Shown here one piece after another: positions 1,362-49,442 of a stretch of DNA of 64,000 nucleotides. Positions within the stretch are counted from its first letter, which is position 1; every line of letters starts with the position of its first letter. A model generated the notes under the pieces. It worked only from the letters and a program-made list of their open reading frames with translations, was not told where the DNA came from and did no database searches. This stretch comes from Lachnospiraceae bacterium. Lineage in GTDB: Bacteria; Bacillota; Clostridia; Lachnospirales; Lachnospiraceae. The stretch spans positions 1-64,000 of the forward strand of contig JAFYYN010000046.1 of the NCBI GenBank assembly GCA_017557525.1. The letters run 5' to 3'. The translations under genes were made by a program, and so were the position numbers.

Positions 1362-3461
1362 TCACCCACTCAGGCTGCCATAATATACAATATTCCCATA
1401 ATAATCATACGCAGTTATAGTAACTGAGATTCCGCTTCCGCTAAGTGAAAGCTTCTCATTAATTCCATACCCGTTATTTGTATACTCATACCGTGTCCCA
1501 TTCGACAGACTGATCACTACATTCTTTACACCAGAACCGGCATTTATTGAAATATTCAGTGTACCCACATTATTGGAATAACTATATGACGAGCTTATAT
1601 TACATGAGGTATCCCCTGAATATACAGGCTGTGTGACTATAGGAGTCATGGTGACTATAGGAGTTGATGTCGGGTATGCAGTAATCACCGGCGTAGGATT
1701 CTGCGTAGGCGAAGCTGTAGGCACATTAATCGGCGCTGTAGGATATGCCGTGATCACCGAAGTAGGTCTCGGCGTAGAGGTTATAATCTCCCACGTAGGC
1801 ATAGGATACTCTGTGATCACAGGATCCGGTTCAGGAGTCACCGGAGTCTCTGTTACCGTAGGAGTCGGGGGTGTGTCCCAATATCCGTGACCGTCAAATT
1901 CCATATCTGCTAAGTAAGGTACACCATATCCATAATAAACATCAAAGCCATCACTTCCCAGATCCACAGCATATGCTTTTAGCGTCTCAGTCATCTCCGA
2001 GCAGGTCATGGACGGAGTTATGATCTTTACCAGTGCCGCAAGACCGCTGATGTGCGGTGTAGCCATTGAAGTACCTGACCAGGATTCATATCCGTTTCCG
2101 GGTACTGAACTATAAATGTTTACTCCCGGAGCAGAAAAATCAACACTGTTTCCATAGTTAGAAAAATAAGCTCTGTTATAATTTGAATCAATAGCAGCCA
2201 CAACTATAGCATCATAATTATGTGCCGGACATTCATATGCCGTATCACTTGAGTCATTTCCTGCTGCAACAACCACTATACACCCGTTTGAAATGGCTTT
2301 CTGTATCGCAGTATCCTCGTAATGACCTGTACCGTAGCTTGCCCCGCCGAGACTTAAATTAATTACATCCGCTCCAGCTTCAGAAGCATAGAGTATCCCG
2401 TTATATACAGCCAGACTTGAGCCATATCCCTGTCCTGAAAGAACCTTAACCGGAAGCAGGGATACATTTGCACCTGATACTGTATTAACAATTATGCCGG
2501 CTACATGTGTACCATGACCGTTATCATCATATGCATCGTAATCATTATTAATGAAATCATAGCCCTTAGAAATGACACTACCTTGAAGATAACTGTGGTT
2601 ATAATCTATACCGGTATCTACTACAGCTACTGTAACGCTTCTGTCAATTCCCGCTTCCCGAAGTCTTTCTGCCAGCTTATCAGCACCGAGCATACTTACA
2701 TTCCAGTCAGAGTTACTTCCGTAATAATCATATGCACTTGCATTAAGCACCGAATCCGGTTCTATCATGGATATAAACTTATCCGGCTCAACATACTCTA
2801 CCTTCTTTGCATCGGTGAGTTTTTCATAAGCAGCCTTAGTTTCCTTCTCGGTATTAAACTGAAGAATATATGTATTTCCATTTATGACATAATCTACCGC
2901 ACCATAGGATTTAGGAGAAATCTTCTTACCCTTCTTGGTTTCTACGATAAGTCTCTTTAACTGATAAGGGCTGGTAACAGAAATGCCGTCCTCCGTCACC
3001 TCAATATCATAGCATGAATTAACGTCAATATCTCTGGCATTCATCACATAAACGCCATTCTTTTTCAGAGGTTTATTTTCTAAGACATATTTCTCGCCGT
3101 CAAAGGTTGAGGACTTTTTATTTATCTTACATTCCCATGTGAATTCATTCGAGGACATTGTAAACGTTTTTCCACTGCGCTTGTAGCTGATACCGGCATC
3201 CTTACAGAAGGAACGAACCGGGATATACCATTCTCCGTCAACGAGACAAGCTCCATCCTCATTCGAATAGTAGAGCGTATCAAAATAATCATCCTCCCAG
3301 TAACGTGAAATGAGATCCGATGTCTCGGTATAAAAATCGAATTTATCCTTCTGACCGTCAATTCTTTCAGGCACATTTATCTCAACAGCCCCTACCGGTG
3401 TGGTACCTGCAGAAAAAGCAAATAAAACTGCAAAAAAGAAACATAAAAATCTCTTATTCAT
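1362..3461 (-). CDS. Secreted subtilisin-like serine protease (S8)
   Basis: A 699-residue exported peptidase. A Sec signal peptide covers about residues 1-25 (basic MNKR, hydrophobic FLCFFFAVLFAF, cleavage near VGA). Residues about 55-175 resemble the copper-amine-oxidase-N-like beta domain common on clostridial cell-surface proteins, and about 180-230 look like an I9-type propeptide. The catalytic triad is intact: D282 in VVDTG, H316 in NGHGTHVAG, S465 in SGTSMATPH, with the oxyanion N402. A Pro/Thr-rich linker (about 540-625) with repeated VITAYPT-like units leads to a small C-terminal beta domain. No sortase motif or membrane anchor is seen. It is monocistronic and has no evident link to its nitrogen-metabolism neighbours other than possibly supplying peptides. 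Confidence 0.93.
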   Translation of the reverse strand: MNKRFLCFFFAVLFAFSAGTTPVGAVEINVPERIDGQKDKFDFYTETSDLISRYWEDDYFDTLYYSNEDGACLVDGEWYIPVRSFCKDAGISYKRSGKTFTMSSNEFTWECKINKKSSTFDGEKYVLENKPLKKNGVYVMNARDIDVNSCYDIEVTEDGISVTSPYQLKRLIVETKKGKKISPKSYGAVDYVINGNTYILQFNTEKETKAAYEKLTDAKKVEYVEPDKFISMIEPDSVLNASAYDYYGSNSDWNVSMLGADKLAERLREAGIDRSVTVAVVDTGIDYNHSYLQGSVISKGYDFINNDYDAYDDNGHGTHVAGIIVNTVSGANVSLLPVKVLSGQGYGSSLAVYNGILYASEAGADVINLSLGGASYGTGHYEDTAIQKAISNGCIVVVAAGNDSSDTAYECPAHNYDAIVVAAIDSNYNRAYFSNYGNSVDFSAPGVNIYSSVPGNGYESWSGTSMATPHISGLAALVKIITPSMTCSEMTETLKAYAVDLGSDGFDVYYGYGVPYLADMEFDGHGYWDTPPTPTVTETPVTPEPDPVITEYPMPTWEIITSTPRPTSVITAYPTAPINVPTASPTQNPTPVITAYPTSTPIVTMTPIVTQPVYSGDTSCNISSSYSYSNNVGTLNISINAGSGVKNVVISLSNGTRYEYTNNGYGINEKLSLSGSGISVTITAYDYYGNIVYYGSLSG

Positions 3462-3628: not shown

Positions 3629-5728
3629 TCAGTTTCTAACACCGAAAAGTAATTCACCGTAAGTCGGGAACGGCCAGTGAGCTCTGTCGGTAAGAGTTTC
3701 AGCCTCATCACAAACTACTCTGAGCTCTGTCATTGCAGGAAGGACATTGTCCCTGATCAGTGCTGATTCCTCAATGATATCCTTAGCGCCGGTCACATCA
3801 GCAACCTTCTGCTTTAATGCATCAGCCAGGTCTATTATTCTCTCTACAGATACCGAAAGCTTCTTGATAAGATCTGTCTCATACTTTGATACAAGCTTCG
3901 GATCAAGCTGCTTCTTTGTAAGTGCTGTCTTTGCAACATCACCGATATAACCTTCAACTGCAGGAGCTATCTGAGCCTTAGCCATATCAACCATTGTATT
4001 TGCCTCAATGATGATGGTCTTTGAGTAGTTCTCAAGCATGATCTCGCATCTTGACTCAATCTCTGCCTTTGAGAATACGTTCTGACCGGTAAGCATCTTG
4101 ACGTTCTTGTCTGAAAGGATAAGAGGCATACAGTCGGGAGTTGTCCTTAAGTTAAGGAGCTTTCTCTTAGTGGTAGCTTCCTTGATCCAAGCATCATCAT
4201 ATCCGTTTCCGTTGAAGATGATCCTCTTATGCTCCTTGATTGTCTTCTGGATAAGCTTATGAAGGTCATTCTCGAAATTCTTTGACTTCTCAAGCTCGTC
4301 TGCGAAAATCTTAAGTGACTCAGCTACAGAAGCATTCAGCATGATGTTTGCACAAGCGATGCTGTTTGATGAACCGAGCATTCTGAACTCGAATTTATTT
4401 CCTGTAAATGCGAAGGGGGAAGTACGGTTACGATCTGTTGTATCTCTGTTGAATCTCGGAAGTACATCAACGCCGAGCTTCATCTGCTTCTTCTCAACGC
4501 CCTTGTAAGGCTTATCCTTCTCGATAGCCTCAAGGATGCCGTTAAGCTCTTCGCCAAGGAAGATTGAAATAACTGCGGGAGGTGCCTCGTTAGCGCCAAG
4601 TCTGTGATCGTTGCCTGCGGTTGCAACTGATATTCTGAGCAGATCCTGATAATCATCAACTGCCTTAATAACTGCGCAGAGGAAGGTCAGGAACTGTGCG
4701 TTTTCATAAGGAGTATCACCGGGCGATAAAAGGTTTACGCCGGTATCGGTACCGATTGACCAGTTGTTGTGCTTGCCGCTTCCGTTAACACCTGCAAAAG
4801 GCTTTTCATGAAGCAGACATACAAGACCGTGACGTGCAGCAACCTTCTGCATGATCTCCATGGTCAGCTGATTCTGGTCTGTTGCGATATTTGTGCTTGA
4901 ATAAATGGGAGCCAGCTCATGCTGTGCAGGAGCAACCTCGTTATGCTCTGTCTTAGCGAGAACACCGAGTTTCCAAAGCTCGTCATTTAAGTCCTTCATG
5001 TACTCCTGAACCTTAGGCTGGATTGTTCCGAAATAATGGTCATCCATTTCCTGTGTCTTAGGAGGCTTTGCACCGAAAAGTGTACGTCCGGTAAACTTAA
5101 GATCGCTTCTCTTGTTGTACATTTCCTTGGTTACAAGGAAGTATTCCTGCTCGGGACCAACTGACGTGGTAACGCGCTTAACATCCTCATTACCAAAGAG
5201 CTTTAATATACGGAGCGCCTGCTTGTTTAATGCTTCCATTGAACGGAGCAGAGGTGTTTTCTTATCAAGTGCCTCTCCGCCGTATGAACAGAATGCGGTA
5301 GGTATGCAAAGTGTATTATCCTTAATGAACGCATAAGATGTAGGATCCCATGCTGTATATCCTCTTGCCTCGAAGGTAGCTCTAAGTCCGCCGCTCGGGA
5401 ATGATGATGCATCAGGCTCGCCCTTTATAAGCTCTTTGCCTGAGAACTCCATGATAACGCCGCCATCAGGTGAAGGTGTGATAAAGCTGTCATGCTTTTC
5501 AGCGGTGATGCCTGTAAGAGGCTGGAACCAATGTGTAAAGTGTGTAGCACCCTTTTCTACAGCCCAGTCCTTCATAGCCTCTGCTACTGCATTAGCAACT
5601 GAAAGCTCAAGCTTTTTGCCCTCGTCGATTGTTTTTCTGAGTGACTTGTAAACGTCCGAAGGAAGCACTGCCTTCATAACCCTGTCATCAAACACGTTAC
5701 ATCCGAAATAATCTGATACTGTTGTCAT
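3629..5728 (-). CDS. glnN: Glutamine synthetase type III
   Basis: ATP-dependent amidation of glutamate by ammonium. At 699 residues it has the length of the dodecameric GS III family (about 700-730), far longer than GS I. Visible GS III features are the N-terminal [11 protein letters not shown] segment, THWFQPLTG, the EKHDSF stretch, [23 protein letters not shown] and [12 protein letters not shown] (the ammonium/glutamate-binding core), and [16 protein letters not shown]. The start ATG has an AGAGGAAAA ribosome site. It is preceded by a long leader with two hexaloop/terminator hairpins and followed by an intrinsic terminator, so it is transcribed alone. Regulation by nitrogen-responsive antitermination is inferred from the leader. 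A second, very different GS (GlnA) lies at 39.4-40.6 kb. Confidence 0.97.
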
Positions 5729-33060: not shown

Positions 33061-33224
33061 GTAGATAACAGGCAACGCAGGGTGTCTGTTTAGGCTGTGA
33101 AGCAATGAGTCGTGCCAGTATGCGGTGTGTTGCAGAGCCTATGGATGGTTTGATGGTTCCCAAAAACTGGCACTGAAAACATCAGAAGGCTCTTCATGTA
33201 CAACATGAAGAGCCTTGATTTTTT
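33061..33224 (+). ncRNA. Putative stand-alone small RNA, about 160 nt, with pseudoknot
   Basis: A complete transcription unit: consensus promoter, no plausible coding frame, and a very strong terminator (AAGGCTCTTCATGT / ACATGAAGAGCCTT, 33186-33216, then a T run). TAGGCT (33091-33096) pairs with AGCCTA (33136-33141), and GTGCCAGT inside that loop (33112-33119) pairs with ACTGGCAC (33166-33173), giving an H-type pseudoknot. The gene downstream converges from the minus strand, so this is not a leader. It does not match the conserved cores I know of for 6S, SRP, tmRNA, RNase P or common riboswitches. Confidence 0.6.
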
Positions 33225-35696: not shown

Positions 35697-35740
35697 AAAG
35701 ACAAGGGCGCCTTTGGTAATCCAAGGGCGTTTTTTATATT
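35697..35740 (+). promoter_or_regulatory. purF leader part 1: hexaloop hairpin versus terminator
   Basis: AAAGAC-[AAGGGC]-GCCTTT (35697-35714) starts about 5-10 nt into the transcript. Its 3' arm CGCCTTTGG alternatively pairs with CCAAGGGCG (35721-35729), followed by six T and further T-rich sequence: an intrinsic terminator well ahead of the coding region. Confidence 0.78.
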
Positions 35741-35752
35741 TTTCAAGAGGTT

Positions 35753-35825
35753 AAGTTTGAAAATAAATTTTCAAACTTCCATCGGTGCCGCGACAGGCAC
35801 GTCACCGATGTGTAAGCATGCCTGT
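35753..35825 (+). promoter_or_regulatory. purF leader part 2: hairpin plus H-type pseudoknot
   Basis: A 26-nt A/T-rich hairpin (35753-35778, arms AAGTTTGAAAA and TTTTCAAACTT) is followed by stem ATCGGTG/CACCGAT (35781-35787 with 35803-35809). Its loop carries ACAGGCA (35793-35799), which pairs perfectly with TGCCTGT (35819-35825), 16 nt before ATG. The same layout with compensatory changes precedes carA and glnA. No strong Shine-Dalgarno site is visible, suggesting control of translation start. Confidence 0.75.
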
Positions 35826-35841
35826 TACATTGATATGAACC

Positions 35842-37230
35842 ATGAGTATACATGAAGAATGCGGAGTTTTCGGTATATACTCCGACCACAAACAGGATGT
35901 TGCTTCTCTTTCATACTACGGTCTATATGCTCTCCAGCACAGAGGTCAGGAGGGCTGCGGTATTGTTGTTAATAACGACAGAGAGTTTTATTCACATAAG
36001 GATCTTGGGTTAGTCAGCGAAGTTTTCTCACAGGAAACACTTGCAAAGTTACCACATGGTACTATGGCCGTTTCCCATGTAAGATATGCAACTACGGGTG
36101 CAGTAACCCGTATCAACTGCCAGCCCATAGAGGTTAATCACAGAAAAGGCAAAATGGCTCTTGCCCATAATGGTAACCTTTCCAATGCTGCTAAGCTGCG
36201 TGAAGAATTGGAACTTAAAGGTGCCATTTTCCATACCACCAGTGACACCGAAACCATTGCATATATCATTACAAGGGAGCGCCTGGTCACATCTTCGATT
36301 GAGGAAGCTGTAGAAAAATCCATGCCTTATTTGGAAGGAGCATACTCTCTTATAATCATGTCTCCCCAGAAATTGATCTGTGTACGCGACCCCCACGGTT
36401 TCCGACCTTTATGTTATGGTCGCACACCTGATGGTACATATATTGCTGCGTCAGAGTCATGCGCCTTGCATGCTGTCGGCGCTGAATTTATAAGAGATTT
36501 AGAGCCGGGTGAGATAGTCGTTTTCAGTAATGAAGGGATCAAATCGATCAAGACTCATGTAAATACTGCTGAGAGAAAGTTCTGCGTTTTTGAATATATT
36601 TATTTCTCACGTCCGGATTCTGTGATTGATGGGATTTCGGTACACGCTTCCAGAGTTAAAGCAGGTGAGATTCTTGCGGAAGAACATCCTGTTGAAGCGG
36701 ACACAGTTATTGGCGCTCCTGATTCTGGTCTTGATGGGGCTCTAGGTTTTTCTAGAAAGTCCGGTATTCCTTACGGTTTGGGATTTATTAAGAATAAGTA
36801 TATAGGGCGTACTTTCATTTCGCCTACCAAGTCTGCCAGAGTTGATGGTGTCAGGATCAAGCTGGCTGCATTAGAGGAAGAAGTACGCGGGAAGCGTGTA
36901 GTGTTGGTAGATGATTCTATAGTCCGCGGTACTACCATGGAAAGAATCGTAAGACTGCTCAAGGAAGCCGGTGCTATCGAGGTTCATGTCAGGATTTCAT
37001 CTCCTCCTTTCCTGCATCCCTGCTTCTACGGAACCGACATTGCTTCAGAAGAAAACCTGGTTGCCGCAGGGCATACTGTTGACCAGATATGCCAGATAAT
37101 CGGTGCCGATTCACTTGGTTTCTTCCCTAGAGAACGACTCGGTGAACTTACAGGCGGCAAAGGATATTGCAGTGCATGCTTTGATGGTGTGTATCCGACG
37201 GAGGTACCGTATATTTCTGTAAAGGAATAA
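35842..37230 (+). CDS. purF: Amidophosphoribosyltransferase
   Basis: First step of purine synthesis: PRPP plus glutamine to phosphoribosylamine. The 462-residue protein begins MSIHEECGVFG; Cys7 is the amidotransferase nucleophile after a short propeptide. Conserved landmarks are HRGQEGCGI, GHVRYATTG-type SHVRYATTGA, and the PRPP loop VVLVDDSIVRGTT. The C-terminal cysteines (CYGTDI, YCSACFDG) fit the Fe-S-containing Bacillus-type enzyme. It is not in a pur operon here but isolated between regulators, with a two-stage leader: a terminator-type hexaloop element, then the pseudoknot next to the start. A terminator follows at 37269-37298. Confidence 0.96.
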   Translation: MSIHEECGVFGIYSDHKQDVASLSYYGLYALQHRGQEGCGIVVNNDREFYSHKDLGLVSEVFSQETLAKLPHGTMAVSHVRYATTGAVTRINCQPIEVNHRKGKMALAHNGNLSNAAKLREELELKGAIFHTTSDTETIAYIITRERLVTSSIEEAVEKSMPYLEGAYSLIIMSPQKLICVRDPHGFRPLCYGRTPDGTYIAASESCALHAVGAEFIRDLEPGEIVVFSNEGIKSIKTHVNTAERKFCVFEYIYFSRPDSVIDGISVHASRVKAGEILAEEHPVEADTVIGAPDSGLDGALGFSRKSGIPYGLGFIKNKYIGRTFISPTKSARVDGVRIKLAALEEEVRGKRVVLVDDSIVRGTTMERIVRLLKEAGAIEVHVRISSPPFLHPCFYGTDIASEENLVAAGHTVDQICQIIGADSLGFFPRERLGELTGGKGYCSACFDGVYPTEVPYISVKE

Positions 37231-39348: not shown

Positions 39349-39432
39349 TAGGATACCTCATACGTTGAATGCTTTAGCGTTCGACCACAGTGCTACGTGT
39401 ATCGATATATCCTCTCAAGTGGAAGGCTTAAC
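39349..39432. repeat. Degenerate copy of the CCTCATC...GGAAGGCTTAA repeat
   Basis: Reads GGATACCTCATACG, later ATGCTTTAGCGTTCGACC, CTACGTGTATCGATATATCC and CTCAAGTGGAAGGCTTAA; parallels the better-preserved copies at 58062-58150 and 59391-59479. It fills the space between glnA and the ANTAR gene and just overlaps the glnA stop codon. Confidence 0.6.
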
Positions 39433-40630
39433 AGTAAAGATCCAGTATTTCCTTAGGCACGTACTTATTTATAAAGTCACTATTAGCTGCTATCTGTCTT
39501 GCAAGGTCTAGTGAATCAGGCAGCTGCTGGTATTTGCCCAAAGTATTTTTATCTGCCTTAAAGAAGTTTACATCTGCAGGCTCAGGTAATTCAAGCTTGT
39601 TCTCTAAGCCATTAAGAGCTGCATAGATCATTAGCCCGAATGCAAGGTAAGGATTTGCAAGAGGATCGGGTGATCTAAGCTCTGCACGCTTATTCTCATC
39701 CATAACTGCAGGAATACGTACAAGCTGAGAACGGTTCTGGTGAGACCATGAAATATACTTAGGTGCCCTGTTATGTCCAAGCCTTAAATATGATTCTCTC
39801 ACAGGGTTCATGAATAACGTCATATCTTCTACCTTATCAAGGATTCCGGCAAGCATATGACGGATTGTATCATCATCGGATGGTTCCATAGAAACATTGA
39901 TATGGAATCCATTTCCTGGTGTATCCTTTAAAGGAAGCGGTGAGAAATCAGCATAGAGACCGTTTCTCTGAGCAATCGTCTTTACTACTGTTTTAAACGT
40001 CATAGCATTATCTGCTGCATTAAGTGCATCTGAATGACGGAAATCTATTTCATTCTGTCCGGGTCCTATCTCGTGATGCGAACTTGTAGGACGAATACCC
40101 ATCTGCTCTAATGTAAGGCATATCTCGCGACGGACATTTTCACCCTTATCCTCTGGTGCAATATCCATATAGCCTGCATGATCATGAGGAACCAGCGTGG
40201 GATTTCCATCATCATCAAGTTTAAATAAATAGAATTCAAGCTCTGATCCGAAATTAAAGCTATACCCTTTTGCCTTTGCTGTCTCAACAGCTTTCTTTAA
40301 GAATGTTCTGGTGTCACACTCTATGGGTGTCCCATCCGGATGGCTAATACCACAGTAAAGTCTTATAACACCGCCATGCTCAGGCCTCCAAGGCAGGAGT
40401 GCCAATGTATCTGCATCAGGATGCAGGAACAGATCCGACTTCATCTCATCACCAAAGCCTGTTATCGATGACGCATCTATTCCTATGCCATGCTCAAAAG
40501 CCTTTTTTAGTTCACAGGGCATAATTGCGATATTCTTCTGATTTCCGAAAACATCACAGAAAGAAAGACGGATAAATTTGATATCCTCTTCCTGTACATA
40601 CTGTATTATCTCATTTGCCGAGTATTTCAT
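39428..40630 (-). CDS. glnA: Glutamine synthetase, short type I, with altered flap
   Basis: A 400-residue GS-fold protein, shorter than standard GS I (about 440-470). Start MKYSANEIIQYV (40630), with AAGG eight bases upstream; an ATG at 40666 lies inside the leader. Landmarks: FCDVFGNQK, GSELEFYLF, HHEIGPGQNEIDF, NGFHINVSM, and NRSQLVRIPA near the end. There is no adenylylation loop. The segment that in GS reads like GYEAP and supplies the flap glutamate is LRLGHNRAPKY here, with Arg in place of Glu. The metal-binding motifs look intact. It may be a true GS with altered activity or a specialised/regulatory paralogue. It precedes the ANTAR gene and has the pseudoknot leader. Confidence 0.88.
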   Translation of the reverse strand: MKYSANEIIQYVQEEDIKFIRLSFCDVFGNQKNIAIMPCELKKAFEHGIGIDASSITGFGDEMKSDLFLHPDADTLALLPWRPEHGGVIRLYCGISHPDGTPIECDTRTFLKKAVETAKAKGYSFNFGSELEFYLFKLDDDGNPTLVPHDHAGYMDIAPEDKGENVRREICLTLEQMGIRPTSSHHEIGPGQNEIDFRHSDALNAADNAMTFKTVVKTIAQRNGLYADFSPLPLKDTPGNGFHINVSMEPSDDDTIRHMLAGILDKVEDMTLFMNPVRESYLRLGHNRAPKYISWSHQNRSQLVRIPAVMDENKRAELRSPDPLANPYLAFGLMIYAALNGLENKLELPEPADVNFFKADKNTLGKYQQLPDSLDLARQIAANSDFINKYVPKEILDLYC

Positions 40631-40645
40631 TTCCCATACCTTGCC

Positions 40646-40715
40646 GCAGACATGTGTATACATCAATGAAGTGCCTGCCTCTTCATCGATGGAAGTTATT
40701 TGTTTTACAAACTTC
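40646..40715 (-). promoter_or_regulatory. glnA leader: hairpin plus H-type pseudoknot
   Basis: On the minus strand: a hairpin with arms GAAGTT/AACTTC (40692-40715), stem ATCGATGAAG/CTTCATTGAT (40681-40690 with 40662-40671), loop GCAGGCA (40672-40678) pairing with TGTCTGC (40646-40652), then 15 nt to ATG including AAGG. Third member of the family seen at purF and carA. Confidence 0.7.
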
Positions 40716-48127: not shown

Positions 48128-49270
48128 CTAACTTAGCATATTCAAGAATTTATCAAATAAGTATCTCGAATCCTGAGGGCCGGGAGCACTCTCGGGATGG
48201 TACTGCACACTGAATACCTTATCTGCTTCGCAGCTTACACCCTCAACCGTGTTATCCAGTATATTCATATGAGTTATCTTAAGCTTAGTATCTTTAACGC
48301 TTTCAGGATCTACCGCATATGAGTGGTTCTGGGATGTGATCTCAATCTTTCCCGTTTCAAGATTCTTTACTGGATGATTTCCACCACGATGTCCAAATTT
48401 CAATTTATATGTCTTTGCACCATATGCCAGAGATATTATCTGATGTCCCAGACAGATACCGAATATTGGGAACTTCCCGATCAGTTCTTTGACTGTTGCA
48501 ATTGTGGCCTCTGCATCCTCAGGATCCCCGGGTCCGTTTGAAATAAATACTCCGTCAGGTCTTAAATCCATTATTTCTTTTGCTGAGGTATTCCATGGAA
48601 CTATGGTCACATCAAGTCCGAGACGGTTGAGACTCAGCACGATGTTTTTCTTCATACCGCAGTCTATGGCAACTATATGCTTTTTATGCCATTTGTATTC
48701 TTGAGTAAAGCCTCCGGAAACTGACTCCTTTGCATTTCCCTGTACAAAGTTATTAGAAAGGATAACTCTTGATTTCCAGATATGCTGACAGCTGACCTTT
48801 GATACAGCATCCTTCGGAATATCAGTTTTCTTTAGTATCTCGATACCCTCTTCCTTTGTGGTAGATGCATCGGTTATCAGGACTTTCCTGCTTCCGTAGT
48901 CTCTAATCGAACGTACAAGCTTTCTTGTATCTAAGCCATAGATGCCGGGTATCTTATACTTTTCCATAATATCGGATAACGTAGCCGCACTTCTGAAATT
49001 GCTCGGATGATCATTGTATTCATGAACTATCAGTGCACCTGCTGTCAGGTTTTCTGATTCATAATCATCCTCAGCCATACCATAATTACCAATAAGTGGA
49101 TATGACATTACTATTGCCTGATAAGTGTAGGAAGGGTCGGACAGTATTTCCTGATAGCCTGCCATGGAAGTATTGAATACCAATTCGCATACCTTGTTCT
49201 CATTGGCACCGAATCCGTATCCGTAGTACTCCTGTCCATCCTCTAAGATAAGTTTCTTGTTGTACTCCAT
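48128..49270 (-). CDS. carA: Carbamoyl-phosphate synthase small subunit
   Basis: Glutaminase subunit feeding ammonia to CarB. Start chosen at MEYNKKLILEDGQEY (49270, 380 residues), because this gives the typical N-terminus and places the pseudoknot 14 nt upstream, as at purF and glnA; an ATG 18 nt earlier lies next to the pseudoknot arm. The C-terminal class I amidotransferase domain has FISNGPGDPE, the nucleophile in FGICLGHQI, and the HPE of QYHPESAPGP. The N-terminal domain shows YQEILSDPSYTYQ and GIYGLDTRKLVR. Shine-Dalgarno pairing is weak, in keeping with translational control. Confidence 0.96.
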   Translation of the reverse strand: MEYNKKLILEDGQEYYGYGFGANENKVCELVFNTSMAGYQEILSDPSYTYQAIVMSYPLIGNYGMAEDDYESENLTAGALIVHEYNDHPSNFRSAATLSDIMEKYKIPGIYGLDTRKLVRSIRDYGSRKVLITDASTTKEEGIEILKKTDIPKDAVSKVSCQHIWKSRVILSNNFVQGNAKESVSGGFTQEYKWHKKHIVAIDCGMKKNIVLSLNRLGLDVTIVPWNTSAKEIMDLRPDGVFISNGPGDPEDAEATIATVKELIGKFPIFGICLGHQIISLAYGAKTYKLKFGHRGGNHPVKNLETGKIEITSQNHSYAVDPESVKDTKLKITHMNILDNTVEGVSCEADKVFSVQYHPESAPGPQDSRYLFDKFLNMLS

Positions 49271-49284
49271 TTTCGTATCACGCC

Positions 49285-49357
49285 GCATGCATGCTTACAC
49301 ATCGGTGGCGTGCATGTACCAGCACCGACGGAAGCTTGAAGTTTTTCTTTCAAGCTT
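49285..49357 (-). promoter_or_regulatory. carA leader: hairpin plus H-type pseudoknot
   Basis: Minus strand: 26-nt hairpin with AAGCTTGAA/TTCAAGCTT arms (49332-49357), stem GTCGGTG/CACCGAT (49323-49329 with 49301-49307), loop ACATGCA (49311-49317) pairing by six bases with TGCATGC (49285-49291). Relative to purF the central loop base changes G to T and its partner C to A, a compensatory pair. Conserved flanks CTTCC(A/G)TCG and GATGTGTAAGCATGC. Confidence 0.75.
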
Positions 49358-49442
49358 ATCATATAGAATCATATTATCTTTCATTCCGCATTGCGGAATG
49401 GGGCCTTGTCACAAGTTATTCTCCCATTTAATGGGCTTCTTC

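Follow-up and report, generated by a model that had tools for sequence, protein, structure and literature searches.

An apparently mobile RNA pseudoknot in the Shine-Dalgarno-to-AUG gap of many unrelated genes in a Lachnospiraceae bacterium

Introduction

Leaders that contain an H-type pseudoknot are known from the preQ1 and SAM-II riboswitches and from the rpsO/S15 operator, each of which marks one pathway or gene. HEARO RNAs are mobile structured RNAs that are said to precede ATGA or GTGA. In phage T4, RNA structure in the leaders of genes 25 and 38 shortens the distance that separates the AUG from the Shine-Dalgarno (SD) sequence, 27 nt becoming 11 or 22 nt becoming 5, as described in PMC3014915. 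Rickettsia palindromic elements (RPEs) and MITE-like repeats are small repeats scattered over many unrelated genes, and nearly half of the RPEs lie within reading frames according to PMC10969869.

The window analyzed here, a stretch of 64,000 nt from a Lachnospiraceae bacterium, contains three copies of an element that can be compared with each of these systems. As in T4 genes 25 and 38, an RNA structure is located between SD and AUG, where it would affect initiation; the T4 cases are single genes with a simple structure, whereas the element precedes dozens of genes, combines a hairpin with a pseudoknot about 16 nt before the AUG and is often accompanied by a weakened SD. It is a small repeat in many unrelated genes like the RPEs but, unlike the RPEs, it occupies the SD-AUG gap and carries a conserved RNA pseudoknot. 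With the preQ1, SAM-II and rpsO leaders it shares the pseudoknot near the start codon and a possible action on translation, but it has no match in Rfam and is found at many genes. The likeness to HEARO is that of a structured RNA in a mobile element beside start-like sequences; the element differs in being much shorter and without an Rfam match, and its downstream genes start with ATGA, ATGG or ATGC. We know of no precedent for a mobile element that targets the SD-AUG gap. The titles and abstracts searched, to which most subscription papers do not belong, contain no published description of the element, which is weak evidence of absence.

Results and Discussion

The original prediction had described a leader with a hairpin, a stem, a CAGGCA-type loop and a TGCCTG-type 3' arm upstream of purF, carA and glnA, and all of these features were present at the predicted positions. 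At purF (plus strand) the original SD core GAGG (35747-35750; the empty site in the sister genome G017 reads AAAGAGGTTCAGCCATG) is followed by the P1 hairpin AAGTTTGAAAATAAATTTTCAAACTT (35753-35778), the P2 stem and loop (35780-35810, with 35780-35787 pairing with 35803-35810 and 35789-35790 with 35800-35801), the 5' arm of P3, CAGGCA (35794-35799), its 3' arm TGCCTG, which forms the pseudoknot (35819-35824), and a 17-nt spacer to the AUG (35825-35841) that ends in the same CC as the empty site. The purF gene (35842-37230, plus strand; TIGR01134) encodes an amidophosphoribosyltransferase of 462 aa. On the minus strand, the glnA copy (40628-40714) consists of P1 (about 40714-40693), P2 (40691-40681 with 40671-40661), P3 (40677-40672 with 40652-40647) and an AAGG-type spacer leading to the AUG at 40630-40628, the start of the glutamine synthetase gene glnA (39428-40630, minus strand) being placed at the ATG 16 nt past P3. 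The carA copy (49268-49358, minus strand) likewise contains P1, P2 and P3 (CATGCA/TGCATG), and carA (48128-49270, minus strand), which encodes the carbamoyl-phosphate synthase small subunit, was given the start ATG 15 nt past P3 (49270-49268). The spacers of 17, 16 and 15 nt for purF, glnA and carA, counted from the end of TGCCTG, equal the 16, 15 and 14 nt predicted with an arm one base longer. Single-strand folding without the pseudoknot yielded P1 and P2 in the three window copies (z = -3.02, -2.17 and -2.35). The core model R2, which lacks P1 and was built from 104 rows including the three window copies themselves, scored them at 72.5, 69.6 and 60.0 bits, with 11.1 bits for the runner-up in the window.

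A terminator-like hairpin followed by a T run is located just 5' of the purF SD (35700-35740, plus strand) and, since similar sequence is present in G017, may represent an attenuator of purF's own. The window also contains two adjacent reading frames, both of 699 aa (1362-3461 and 3629-5728, minus strand), that perhaps arose by tandem duplication.

Although all three predicted members are real, they are not the whole set: parsing of this genome (3.93 Mb, 196 contigs) yielded 56 well-formed copies, these three included. A blastn search of the genome with the purF element returned 34 matches representing 32 distinct places, two self-palindromes having been subtracted, and at E<=0.1 the covariance model R1 built from the 32 aligned places gave at least 74 matches, of which 59 also passed E<=1e-5, with 150 of 1472 first-look candidates scored. 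Another divergent copy (L312, 2710-2773, minus strand; R2 35.4 bits) lies outside the R1 list, which makes the count of 74 incomplete; by eye, the gene after it resembles rsmE. One element copy adjoins a tmRNA gene (RF00023, 160 bits; L031, 1639-2027, minus strand). Many dispersed copies are what a mobile small repeat of the MITE or RPE kind would leave. Among 61 genomes, R1 matches were confined to ten, all within the genus (10 of 24 members, our genome counted; 0 of 37 genomes outside). An exact 31-base pattern occurred in the genomes of 84,980 species in one stretch, from a goat-omasum Lachnospiraceae MAG that shares its coordinates with the genus member G006. Within the family, R2 detected the core at E<=1e-3 in 25 genomes out of 397 (our genome included), clearly so in five other genera (G188, G298, G307, G378 and G270; best E <1e-14), and in 3 of 391 genomes of the class at E<=1e-4 (our genome included), one of them a weak match outside the family (28.5 bits); 13 candidates were scored per genome in the family and class scans, so that copy numbers there are lower bounds.

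The element measures roughly 85-90 nt and is composed of the P1 hairpin, an H-type pseudoknot of P2 and P3, and a tail of the form GGCA-AGGTAC or GGCA-TGATAC. P2 comprises about 11 bp with a short loop, and is accompanied by the P3 pairing CAGGCA/TGCCTG, a linker of 7-9 nt in most copies and then the spacer. Out of 125 model records (69 from our genome and 56 from relatives; the duplicates L115 and L147 excluded), an H-type pseudoknot could be parsed in 119, and within simple limits in 109; the rows removed were six unparsed records and ten others, of which eight had a P2 shorter than 7 bp, one was antisense and one misparsed. In an alignment of 104 of the 106 distinct cores (L085 and L142 excluded), standard pairs occupy 91.1% of the cells, both sides have changed in 11 of 11 pairs of P2 and in 5 of 7 of P3, and the covariation score is 0.257 compared with at most 0.082 for slid versions. 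The number of cells changed on both sides is 116 as opposed to 30.1 in shuffles, and none of 500 shuffles reaches 116. With 32 distinct blastn places, 74 model matches and covariation above all 500 shuffles, the observation exceeds what chance would produce. Compensatory change in the pairing of loop and 3' arm, which had been read from three sequences, is supported by the P3 pairs, and the predicted covariation of stem 1 and the first hairpin by the P2 pairs and by P1, where 76.7% of the cells are paired and 9 of 12 pairs have changed on both sides in the 32-copy set. The P2 sequence is free, and the 5' arm of P3 is almost invariant (C20, A21, G22, G23 and C24 in 99-103 of 104 copies).

A stem with a score of at least 6 was found 5' of P2 in 76 of 109 copies compared with 17% of shuffles, often with a new sequence, and a looser count without this control gave 92 of 109. 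A loss of P1 in divergent copies was not borne out by the shuffle-controlled stem count, as 13 of 23 hand-picked divergent copies also have a stem at the P1 position. In the divergent copies L060, L105, L110 and L112 the sequence of P2 is new yet still pairs, and P3 and the spacing to the AUG are retained. A similar pattern was observed at ileS, which bears the element in both G000 and G008 (proteins 94% identical): P2 reads CATCCGTAGCG/CGCTACGGATG in one and CATCTGTGACG/CGTCACAGATG in the other, and P1 is likewise changed on both sides. If these two copies share descent, the structure would have been maintained after insertion at ileS; an independent gain is possible because G017 is without an ileS copy.

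For each of the 56 parsed copies of our genome, the assigned start opens a reading frame of 101 aa or more. The NCBIfam scan, which covered 50 of the 56 downstream proteins cut at 330 residues, named or suggested purF, hisB, an EF-P/FabG-type reductase, dtd, pyrD, carA, ileS, folD, dnaB, proC, glnA, der, eda, fliI, hprK, purE, thioredoxin, priA, rnfC, a histidine kinase, a response regulator, an ABC transporter, and CheW-, BlaR1-, rhomboid- and TldD-like proteins, several of these names (ileS, dnaB, glnA, folD, priA) scoring under the curated cut-off. Pfam added a GdpP-like protein, and 21 of the 50 scanned proteins had no NCBIfam family at E<=1e-10. The downstream genes are functionally mixed and do not form one pathway.

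The position relative to these genes is nearly fixed. An ATG in any frame is located 16 nt after P3 in 78 of 109 copies, 15 nt in 12 and 17 nt in 7 (15-17 nt in 97), the next commonest offsets being 4 nt (22 copies) and 9 nt (13); this all-frame count repeats without bias a first assignment that chose the in-frame start codon nearest 16 nt and was biased to that value. Comparison with G017 (PurF 92% identical) revealed an ordinary SD-AUG gap at purF, as given above, where our genome has AAGAGGTT, the element and then CCATG, and the sequence upstream of purF can be aligned between the two genomes. In all 29 orthologues compared, G017 lacks an intact copy and thus provides the empty sites expected of a mobile repeat. 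R2 gave no match below E=0.029 at 30 orthologous G017 loci, and tail-like sequence was present at two sites (L247 and L250). The 29 pairs were found with a joined query of N-terminal pieces, and protein identity was 58-96% in 28 and 40% in one, which may be a paralogue; three pairs required a shift of the G017 start by 6-12 nt. The clearest filled and empty pairs are L060/L229 (filled, GGAGGAAAA, insert, ATATGAGTAAGGTT; empty, GGAGGAAAATAATATGAGTAAGGTT), L040/L243, L046/L249, L043/L255, L033/L235, L045/L234 and L048/L228. No target-site duplication was seen by eye in the pairs with G017. Identity of filled and empty sites just before the AUG exceeds permutation only at -1 (17 of 29, p=0.01, six positions tested; p=0.23 at -2 and p=0.96 at -3), which leaves the 3' border of the element uncertain.

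Of 23 genus genomes that have purF one contains the purF copy, and of 24 that have carA one contains the carA copy, so that a gain of both in the lineage of our genome would be the simplest reading. The glnA copy is present in our genome, in G020 (26.5 bits) and in part in G010 (18.6 bits), where the glnA leader (L181) has a P2-like stem and CAGGCA with a long extra stretch before TGCCTG. At least 4 of the 56 copies of our genome have an orthologous copy among those fetched from relatives; 56 of 89 matches in relatives were fetched, making such sharing counts lower bounds.

We consider the element to be, with moderate confidence, a dispersed and apparently mobile structured RNA in the SD-AUG gaps of unrelated genes that most likely serves as a ribosome-binding module. 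The element lies in the same orientation each time between the SD and the start codon, where some enzyme would have inserted it, and by its location inside this gap it must belong to the mRNA. The pseudoknot, ending 16 nt before the AUG, would belong to the ribosome-binding module and recruit the ribosome, any regulation being conceivable on top of this, and about 60% of copies bring along a weak SD-like spacer word, typically AAGG. Once the element takes over initiation, the old SD would be freed from selection and decay.

No mobilizing enzyme was found in a search of one family, the Y1 transposases (Y1_Tnp; RAYT/IS200, PF01797), whose genes occur in 7 of 10 element carriers and 5 of 14 non-carriers and do not clearly track the element; the copy near one such gene precedes another gene. 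A phage or plasmid vector was set aside, as neither 50,697 phage records nor 72,556 plasmid records gave a blastn match to the purF copy at E<=0.01. A single exact 18-mer match in IMG/VR is without the 3' arm of P3; no listed ORF covers it, and by eye it reads as the last part of a reading frame that extends beyond the stretch.

Filled genes have a weaker upstream SD than the empty G017 sites (mean -4.9 compared with -8.4 kcal/mol; 29 pairs, Wilcoxon p=1e-4), and some copies retain a strong one (L048, -15.7; L060, -9.5). Of 109 copies, 66 contain an SD-like word in the spacer, most often AAGG at a distance of 8 nt from the AUG, the AAGG type being defined by AAGG, AAAG, GAGG, AGGG or CAGG within 12 nt after P3. 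The 34 of 109 copies of the TGAT type have no spacer SD and an upstream SD that is not above background (-4.0 compared with -3.6 for the control), and initiation in these copies is left unexplained by the ribosome-binding module. TGAT-type copies (e.g. L031, L032 and L033) often have a start-like codon about 12 nt upstream of the assigned one; it is in frame in 21 of the 28 scored out of 34 and may be the real start of some of these genes. A coding explanation, under which the 3' part (MCKHACGMIRNM) is read in frame with many genes, was considered and is not general, because the upstream start lies in another frame in purF (by eye), carA, L025, L046, L058, L096, L110 and L130.

The same SD data bear on the possibility, which we regard as unlikely, that the ribosome-binding site is split, the insert folding compactly so that the ribosome would use upstream SD and AUG jointly across it, for which T4 genes 25 and 38 are the precedent (PMC3014915). 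Anti-SD pairing rises just 5' of P1, SD-like pairing there is enriched over all copies (-4.9 compared with -3.6 for the control, p=9e-4), and 36 of the 92 stem-bearing copies have an SD core within 16 nt 5' of the stem, 28 of these at 1-5 nt; yet the signal is weaker than at empty sites and is lost in background in the TGAT type. Anti-SD peaks need not mean an SD, since a second and larger one coincides with GGTG, a conserved strand of P2 that by position is not an SD. Bridging would also leave a long gap in the window type, since the remainder of 16 nt between P3 and AUG exceeds, in linear distance, the 5 or 11 nt of T4. An insert of similar design that may fit bridging was observed in G076 (genus g54). 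This second SD-AUG insert type (22 blastn matches, loci L290-L311, e.g. L301, L295 and L290) has GGAGAA abutting a stem GCCAGAGG/CCTTTGGC that is variable inside and closes right before ATGATACAAAATATG, its smallest form (L301) being a plain hairpin, and it looks like a bridged SD. Its tail, GGCATGATAC(A/G)AAATATG, is common to the TGAT type of the window's element.

Just as unlikely in our view is a purely selfish, MITE-like repeat whose folding serves the copying of its own DNA and whose effect on translation is merely tolerated. The differences in presence between relatives and the existence of near-identical copies including P1 (e.g. L002, 98.6% over 73 nt) would be expected of such a repeat, and a hairpin function in DNA would also explain that P1 is often re-paired with new sequence. 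A dead repeat, however, need not keep P2 pairing, P3 and AUG spacing as the divergent copies L060, L105, L110 and L112 do, and DNA copying alone would hardly account for a location confined to the SD-AUG gap.

The ligand proposed originally, glutamine, PRPP or a nucleotide, found no support: the genes are mixed, copies differ between close relatives and the sister genome has an ordinary SD-AUG gap, and a regulon of this kind was set aside on the gene list and on these differences. A metabolite riboswitch would be expected to serve one pathway and to be kept with orthologues, neither of which is the case here. The element may still bind some ligand. The prediction was correct in that no riboswitch core is matched in Rfam 15, which contains no matching family at all. 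At the Rfam gathering score the window yielded the drum RNA alone (RF02958, 55.5 bits; 33092-33187, plus strand) with the element copies unmatched, the chance-level matches near the three window copies, accepted up to E=10, included no riboswitch, and eight other loci gave tmRNA alone; the riboswitch families considered were glutamine-I and -II, PRPP, ZTP and purine. Translational control, also part of the prediction, is still a natural guess because of the near-fixed AUG spacing and the often weak ribosome site, without the ligand that had been attached to it. A translational riboswitch or protein-binding leader that senses a global signal for a large regulon is improbable, somewhat more so than the two alternatives above. 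Its attraction is that the 5' arm of P3 is nearly invariant while P2 covaries freely, as expected of a recognition core, and that biosynthetic genes are among the carriers (purF, purE, carA, pyrD, hisB, proC, folD, glnA). It is opposed by the mixed functions of the genes overall, the few copies common to the relatives' fetched copies (4 of 56), the lack of an Rfam match and the failure of a competing hairpin: the one candidate expression platform tested for mutually exclusive structures, TGCC/GGCA against P3, was rejected, being 77.4% paired with a covariation of 0.107 both observed and shuffled.

Excision of the element from the mRNA after transcription would restore about normal SD-AUG spacing, e.g. 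at L060 and purF, and is very improbable, as no Rfam self-splicing family was found at threshold and a weakened upstream SD is unexpected under splicing.

Conclusions

The window offers a warning that not every covarying leader is a riboswitch, three neighbouring genes having mimicked a glutamine regulon by chance. If the reading as a mobile ribosome-binding module is true, a repeat that lands in the short gap separating ribosome-binding site and start codon, in genes such as ileS and dnaB, would be a mobile element of a kind without precedent known to us, and its copies would form a natural set of folded ribosome-recruiting modules. More tentatively, mobile RNA pseudoknots that insert into initiation regions might provide bacteria with portable modules for ribosome entry that are partly SD-independent, and other genera of the family might have related types with a different fold. 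The filled and empty genes would then be natural experiments on bacterial initiation without a normal SD.
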